Shown here: piece by piece, positions 22,489 through 22,707 of the stretch | Layout: every line of letters starts with the position of its first letter | How positions within the stretch are numbered: the stretch's first letter is position 1 | NCBI GenBank assembly: GCA_016189945.1 | Contig: JACPRN010000180.1 | Span: 1 to 32,533, forward strand | Reading direction: 5' to 3' | Source: Betaproteobacteria bacterium | Lineage (GTDB): Bacteria; Pseudomonadota; Gammaproteobacteria; Burkholderiales; SG8-39 | Length of the DNA: 32,533 bases | Notes under the pieces: model-generated | Database searches by the model: none | Told to the model about the DNA's origin: nothing | The model's input: only the letters and a program-made list of their open reading frames with translations | Program-made: the position numbers and the translations under genes

Positions 22489-22528
22489 AAAAAAGCCCCG
22501 GGTAAAAGAGGGGAATAAAACCCGGGGC
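22489..22528 (-). terminator. Intrinsic terminator (minus-strand polarity)
   Basis: Perfect 9-bp stem with 16-nt loop, followed on the minus strand by TTTTTT; no minus-strand CDS lies upstream. Confidence 0.7.
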
Positions 22529-22620
22529 CAAAATGCCTTAAGGATTAAGGCACCCGCTCAGGGAGGAGAAGCGGGAGATGTCTGCTTTCGCAAACCATCT
22601 GCGGCGTTGGACGGCGCCGG
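22489..22620 (-). ncRNA. Candidate structured sRNA (minus strand) between engB and hemB: consecutive hairpins ending in an intrinsic terminator
   Basis: Minus-strand order: CGGCG/CGCCG (22602-22619), AGATG..UGC-GAAA-GCA..CAUCU (22576-22600), CCCGCU-UCUCCUCCCUG-AGCGGG (22553-22575), UGCCUUAA-UCC-UUAAGGCA (22534-22552), GCCCCGGGU..ACCCGGGGC (22495-22528) then U6 (22489-22494). Confidence 0.6.
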
Positions 22621-22707
22621 TTGCAAAATGGTTCCCGGAAATCCTCACAGGCGCGCGCATCCAGAGCAAGCTACTGTTTTCACAGGGAAAAAAGTCAAGG
22701 AGAAGCG

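Follow-up and report, generated by a model that had tools for sequence, protein, structure and literature searches.

An anti-hemB small RNA between engB and hemB in a betaproteobacterium, probably under an envelope-stress sigma factor and probably related to ErsA and sX13

The window analysed in this work is the whole 32,533-nucleotide stretch of DNA from a betaproteobacterial assembly. Within it, a small RNA (sRNA) is predicted on the minus strand between the convergent gene engB and the divergent gene hemB, with the following features:

21841-22470, plus strand: engB (ysxC/yihA), its 3' end converging with the sRNA terminator
22487-22601, minus strand: predicted full-length sRNA of approximately 115 nt, starting near 22600 and ending with the U tract, with four stacked hairpins
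22489-22528, minus strand: intrinsic terminator, with a GC stem (22528-22495), C-rich loop UUCCCCUCUUUU and U6 tract (22494-22489)
22534-22552, minus strand: middle hairpin, UGCCUUAA UCC UUAAGGCA, containing covarying pairs
22553-22575, minus strand: anti-Shine-Dalgarno (anti-SD) hairpin, with stem CCCGCU/AGCGGG and 11-nt loop UCUCCUCCCUG at 22569-22559
22576-22600, minus strand: 5' hairpin with a GAAA loop, outside the Rfam model and helix 1 of the betaproteobacterial alignment
22607-22635, minus strand: predicted sigma-E-type promoter, with -35 GGAACCA (22635-22629), N17 and -10 TCCAA (22611-22607), conserved in position
22708-23709, plus strand: hemB, divergent from the sRNA

Searching the whole window with cmscan identified a single match above cut-off, to the Rfam family RF02837 ('anti-hemB'), spanning 22578-22487 on the minus strand and the full model (1-81) with a score of 74.9 bits, relative to a cut-off of 49.5. 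This direct match settles the existence and kind of the RNA, which clearly belongs to RF02837. The structured motif near hemB that the earlier note on this DNA had mentioned is this family, and the RNA is consequently not novel, but an already catalogued sRNA. Anti-hemB RNAs have been on record since 2013, with hemB as the predicted target, and we know of no function for the family. Their expression and association with Hfq are known only from Burkholderia cenocepacia, in which Bc7 co-purified with Hfq, with hemB again the predicted target (PMC6321483), and ncS04, a 105 nt RNA observed by dRNA-seq, RACE and Northern blotting, binds Hfq and was expressed at an unchanged level across the conditions tested (PMC5688073). 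The transcript predicted here, from approximately 22600 to 22487, fits this reported length. As the Rfam model begins at 22578, the 5' hairpin falls outside it. Two extended models were considered: R1, built from betaproteobacterial sequences only and including the 5' helix, and R2, built from beta- and gammaproteobacterial sequences. Both cover 22603-22487, with R2 scoring 91.9 bits.

The four hairpins described in the earlier note were found in the same minus-strand positions, and the minimum free energy of this strand, -49.4 kcal/mol, was far below that of dinucleotide shuffles (-30.5 +/- 3.4; z -5.5, 0/200). The plus strand folded less well (-43.8, z -3.7), and the terminator's U tract is present only on the minus strand. 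Across the helices of 44 betaproteobacterial relatives, G-U pairs outnumbered A-C mismatches by 96 to 13, or 53 to 13 once one near-invariant U-G was excluded, and this excess supports the minus strand. All four helices covary in these 44 sequences, with two-sided compensatory changes in 64 cells, compared with 18.7 +/- 5.1 in shuffles, meaning the conservation of the hairpins is far above the chance expectation. The 5' GAAA hairpin is itself a conserved part of the RNA that shows compensatory changes: 95% of the cells in its helix are paired and five of its six pairs exhibit two-sided changes. Such changes affect six of the seven pairs of the middle hairpin. The joint alignment of 53 beta- and gammaproteobacterial sequences was fitted to the structure, towards which its covariation counts lean; with the gammaproteobacteria added, two-sided changes were found in 7/7 pairs of the middle hairpin, and in 28/29 pairs overall. 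The anti-SD hairpin is near-invariant in both groups, which share the nearly identical sequence CCGCTNNNCCTCCCTGAGCGG, and the CCCC of the terminator loop is mostly kept. The proposal that the minus strand encodes an sRNA of its own, carrying an anti-SD loop and ending in an intrinsic terminator, is supported. The weaker fifth hairpin placed at 22602-22619 falls outside this RNA, on the spacer and -10 element that precede it in the conserved promoter. In Comamonadaceae (L061, L074, L078, L086 and others), a short stem takes the place of the middle hairpin and bears the near-invariant loop GTGTGACAGCAAA, perhaps a second, family-specific pairing site.

In the window's family, and in many other betaproteobacteria, the sRNA is preceded at a fixed position by the motif GGAACTT-N16/17-TCTNA, which is the consensus of RpoE/AlgU-type sigma factors. 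When this consensus was used to scan for promoters, counting scores of at least 9 of 11 as matches and estimating the expectation from shuffles, the motif was detected at 47 of 57 loci, relative to 2.6 expected; these comprised 29/31 betaproteobacterial loci (1.6 expected) and 18/26 gammaproteobacterial loci (1.05 expected). In the window the motif reads GGAACCA-N17-TCCAA, a weak match when taken alone (score 8 of 11, p 0.1), and in a congener it reads GGAACCA-N17-TCTAA. Among named genomes, the motif was present in all six Rhodocyclales, all four Oxalobacteraceae, and five of six from Nitrosospira, Gallionella, Methylophilaceae and Hydrogenophilales, with Methylovorus among those carrying this type of promoter, but in only 2/25 Comamonadaceae. 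Sigma-70-like elements instead precede the sRNA in Comamonadaceae and Burkholderia. Burkholderia sensu lato mostly retain GAAACTT...TCATA, overlapped by a sigma-70-like TATCAT, whereas B. ambifaria has TATCAT alone, and a predicted RNA length of 105 nt. The two elements overlap in this manner at the Paraburkholderia loci L092, L097, L109 and L114, as if caught between two promoter types. In Nitrosospira briensis (L111:675-909), the sRNA is duplicated in tandem, and no sigma-E-type promoter precedes the second copy. The TTGACT at 22698-22693, formerly suggested as a -35 element, lies approximately 95 nt too far upstream and did not appear as a conserved element when the upstream regions of relatives were aligned; it was rejected, the conserved promoter being at 22635-22607.

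The genomic context of the RNA differs between classes. As in the window, the sRNA sits between hemB and engB in most betaproteobacterial relatives, in the order engB - sRNA - hemB. Matches to RF02837, mostly below cut-off, were also found in 168 of 369 gammaproteobacterial-class genomes, typically in the order polA - sRNA - engB, converging on engB and without hemB. Locating engB with TIGR03598, the RNA was found to converge on this gene, within 600 nt of its 3' end, in 39 of the 55 genomes for which coordinates of both were listed, and further gammaproteobacterial matches adjoin polA. The betaproteobacterial-only model R1 recovers the gammaproteobacterial loci with E values down to 2e-15. 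Several gammaproteobacteria (G231, G323 and G339) have four copies of the sRNA in a row. Vogesella (Neisseriales; L098:6171-6261) is the only locus seen at which the sRNA follows engB and is read in the same direction, and its sRNA retains a GAAACTT-type promoter.

The fixed position of the promoter motif suggests that an envelope-stress sigma factor, most likely RpoE, probably switches on the window's sRNA. A search of 37 genomes for RpoE (TIGR02939) gave matches above cut-off in 33, among them each of the three other members of the genus, but none was found in the assembly that contains the window, which is 80% complete. The window also encodes an ECF sigma factor (PhyR_sigma2, Sigma70_r4_2; 20521-21054, minus strand) approximately 1.5 kb from the sRNA, and the two are approximately 1.5-7 kb apart in at least 15 genomes of the family, when coordinates are compared by eye. 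That this or another ECF factor reads the motif in place of RpoE would be consistent with the linkage of the two genes in many of these genomes. Yet this is distinctly improbable, as the same motif precedes the sRNA in Rhodocyclales, Nitrosospira and gammaproteobacteria, where ErsA uses the RpoE homologue sigma22, and the -10 element TCTNA presumably suits RpoE better than the EcfG type. It is also improbable that the window's RNA is a constitutive, sigma-70-dependent competitor for SD sequences with no stress role, as its counterpart in Burkholderia sensu stricto seems to be: the steady level of ncS04 (PMC5688073), the sigma-70-like elements of Burkholderia and Comamonadaceae, and the coincidence of the length predicted in B. 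ambifaria with that reported for ncS04 all favour such regulation, but the window's family and most betaproteobacteria outside these two groups carry the sigma-E-type motif. The meaning of the Rfam name is that the RNA acts in cis on hemB, whether as an antisense to its leader or as an sRNA chiefly aimed at its SD. The two are adjacent in most betaproteobacteria, the hemB SD of the window pairs perfectly with the sRNA over 10 nt (AGGAGAAGCG), and hemB is a predicted target of Bc7 (PMC6321483). However, the energy of the duplex with the hemB ribosome-binding site ranges from -16.9 in the window down to -1.4 in relatives (mean of -8.4 in the relatives, compared with -5.4 for engB), many of which have weak hemB SDs that pair poorly with the sRNA; the predicted RNA starts approximately 107 nt upstream of the hemB start codon and runs away from the gene; and the gammaproteobacterial RNA at polA-engB has no hemB beside it. 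Hence, with the complementarity not conserved, hemB seems to adjoin the sRNA without being its target, and a conserved interaction between them is unlikely. A cis-acting role is very improbable, and the coupling to hemB expression envisaged in the earlier note is not upheld.

Trans-acting blocking of SD sequences is the most likely mode of action. In the host genome, 27 sites carry GGGAGGAG before an ATG, many of them in genes for periplasmic solute-binding proteins. Genes with an AAGGAGG SD served as controls, part of which also pair with the sRNA. TctC receptors accounted for 10/22 candidate targets and 20/69 controls (p 0.19), and all solute-binding proteins for 13/22 and 23/69 (p 0.045, with some control SDs also pairing with the sRNA), such that no specific enrichment among predicted targets was found relative to the AAGGAGG set. 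Solute-binding proteins as a target class are a lead only. The genome is rich in genes for TctC-type periplasmic receptors, one being noted in the window (26017-27294, plus strand), and these make up approximately 30% of host genes with an AAGGAGG-ATG start region.

The locus of the RNA, 3' of engB and converging with it, together with its architecture and promoter type, points to a counterpart of the polA-engB sRNAs ErsA and sX13. Some gammaproteobacterial loci form a bridge, combining a match to RF02837 with weak matches to RF02232 (sX13) or RF01719 (ErsA/Pseudomon-1) at identical coordinates. Gammaproteobacterial anti-hemB loci matched the sX13 model at 39.5 bits (E 5.6e-4) and 37.9 bits, and the Pseudomon-1/ErsA model at 30-37 bits, all of which are weak. 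Conversely, when R2 was compared with genuine loci of the two families, it scored 27 bits (E 1.6e-4) at one for sX13 and 22.2 bits (E 0.0018) at one for ErsA, although the terminator accounts for part of these scores. Both of these loci are downstream of polA, and that of ErsA (L206) has the upstream element TGAACTT-N16-GTCATA. In approximately 100 kb of Escherichia coli sequence, the best match to R2, at 19.2 bits, fell at the exact coordinates of spf, which encodes Spot 42, with the next at 10.9; Spot 42 was rejected as a homologue, as this match owes its score to the terminator and does not include the anti-SD hairpin, and was kept as a positional analogue. The alphaproteobacterial ar7 near polA (Shinella, L274) gave a partial, weak match only. 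In the window itself, RF02232 (17.8 bits) and RF01719 (13.7 bits) were below their cut-offs of 50, Spot 42 was not among the Rfam matches, and the genes flanking the sRNA are engB and hemB rather than polA, leaving engB as the shared anchor. The weak direct scores, the dependence of the Spot 42 match on the terminator, and the occurrence of C-rich-loop sRNAs in unrelated bacteria (PMC3771888) would all be expected if these similarities reflected convergence on C-rich loops and GC terminators at a locus prone to hold sRNAs. This is nevertheless unlikely, given the continuum of intermediates, and the common locus, orientation and promoter type. Common descent is the slightly favoured alternative: the anti-hemB RNAs, the gammaproteobacterial polA-engB sRNAs, ErsA and sX13 may all derive from a single ancestor, an SD-blocking sRNA that depended on sigma-E and was anchored at engB. 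In this view, betaproteobacteria moved engB and the sRNA beside hemB, and the stress promoter was swapped for a constitutive one in Burkholderia sensu stricto and Comamonadaceae.

The window's RNA is therefore best explained, with reasonable confidence, as an anti-hemB family sRNA that blocks SD sequences in trans, is expressed from its own ECF promoter, and is probably the counterpart in betaproteobacteria of ErsA from Pseudomonas and sX13 from Xanthomonas. Under envelope stress, RpoE would activate its transcription between hemB and engB; the C/U-rich loop, perhaps assisted by the C-rich terminator loop, would base-pair with ribosome-binding sites rich in purines; and the translation of envelope and transport mRNAs would thereby be reduced. 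The sigma-E-type promoter, the conserved 5' hairpin and the link to ErsA and sX13 through the polA-engB locus would be additions to what is known of RF02837, none of them being mentioned in the limited range of literature searched. The findings point away from hemB and towards the control of envelope stress, and make the function of the RNA directly testable through dependence on RpoE. The proposed link to ErsA and sX13 would also join families held unrelated by Rfam, and bears on the question, raised in the description of sX13, of whether the polA loci of other bacteria encode such sRNAs (PMC3771888).

Among known systems, the closest is RF02837 itself (Burkholderia RNA 7; Bc7; ncS04), which shares the sequence, anti-SD hairpin, middle hairpin, terminator and hemB/engB locus of the window's RNA, but whose Rfam model lacks the conserved 5' hairpin, and whose members in Burkholderia sensu stricto have sigma-70-like promoters, rather than the sigma-E-type found in the window's lineage. 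The double-hairpin RNAs of RF02278 (Betaproteobacteria toxic small RNA) similarly have CU-rich loops complementary to ribosome-binding sites, but consist of two hairpins, occur in several copies at other loci, and scored below cut-off in the window (17.6 bits, relative to 50). Spot 42 shares the arrangement of polA, an sRNA and a converging engB/yihA in E. coli, but lacks the anti-SD hairpin and is repressed by CRP; we know of no sigma-E promoter for it. Its position between polA and yihA/engB is established (PMC3295665). The sRNA sX13 has similar stem-loops with apical C-rich loops, which act on G-rich motifs near start codons, and is always downstream of polA (PMC3771888); it acts without Hfq, whereas the anti-hemB member ncS04 binds this protein (PMC5688073). 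ErsA resembles the window's RNA in its C-rich unpaired regions and GC terminator, has a GAACTT-type promoter with strong counterparts in the window's relatives and a weak one in the window itself, and differs in its location downstream of polA and in the sub-cut-off score of its model in the window. In P. aeruginosa it is strictly dependent on sigma22 (PMC7565897), and represses algC by pairing at the ribosome-binding site, as well as repressing the porin OprD (PMC6321483).
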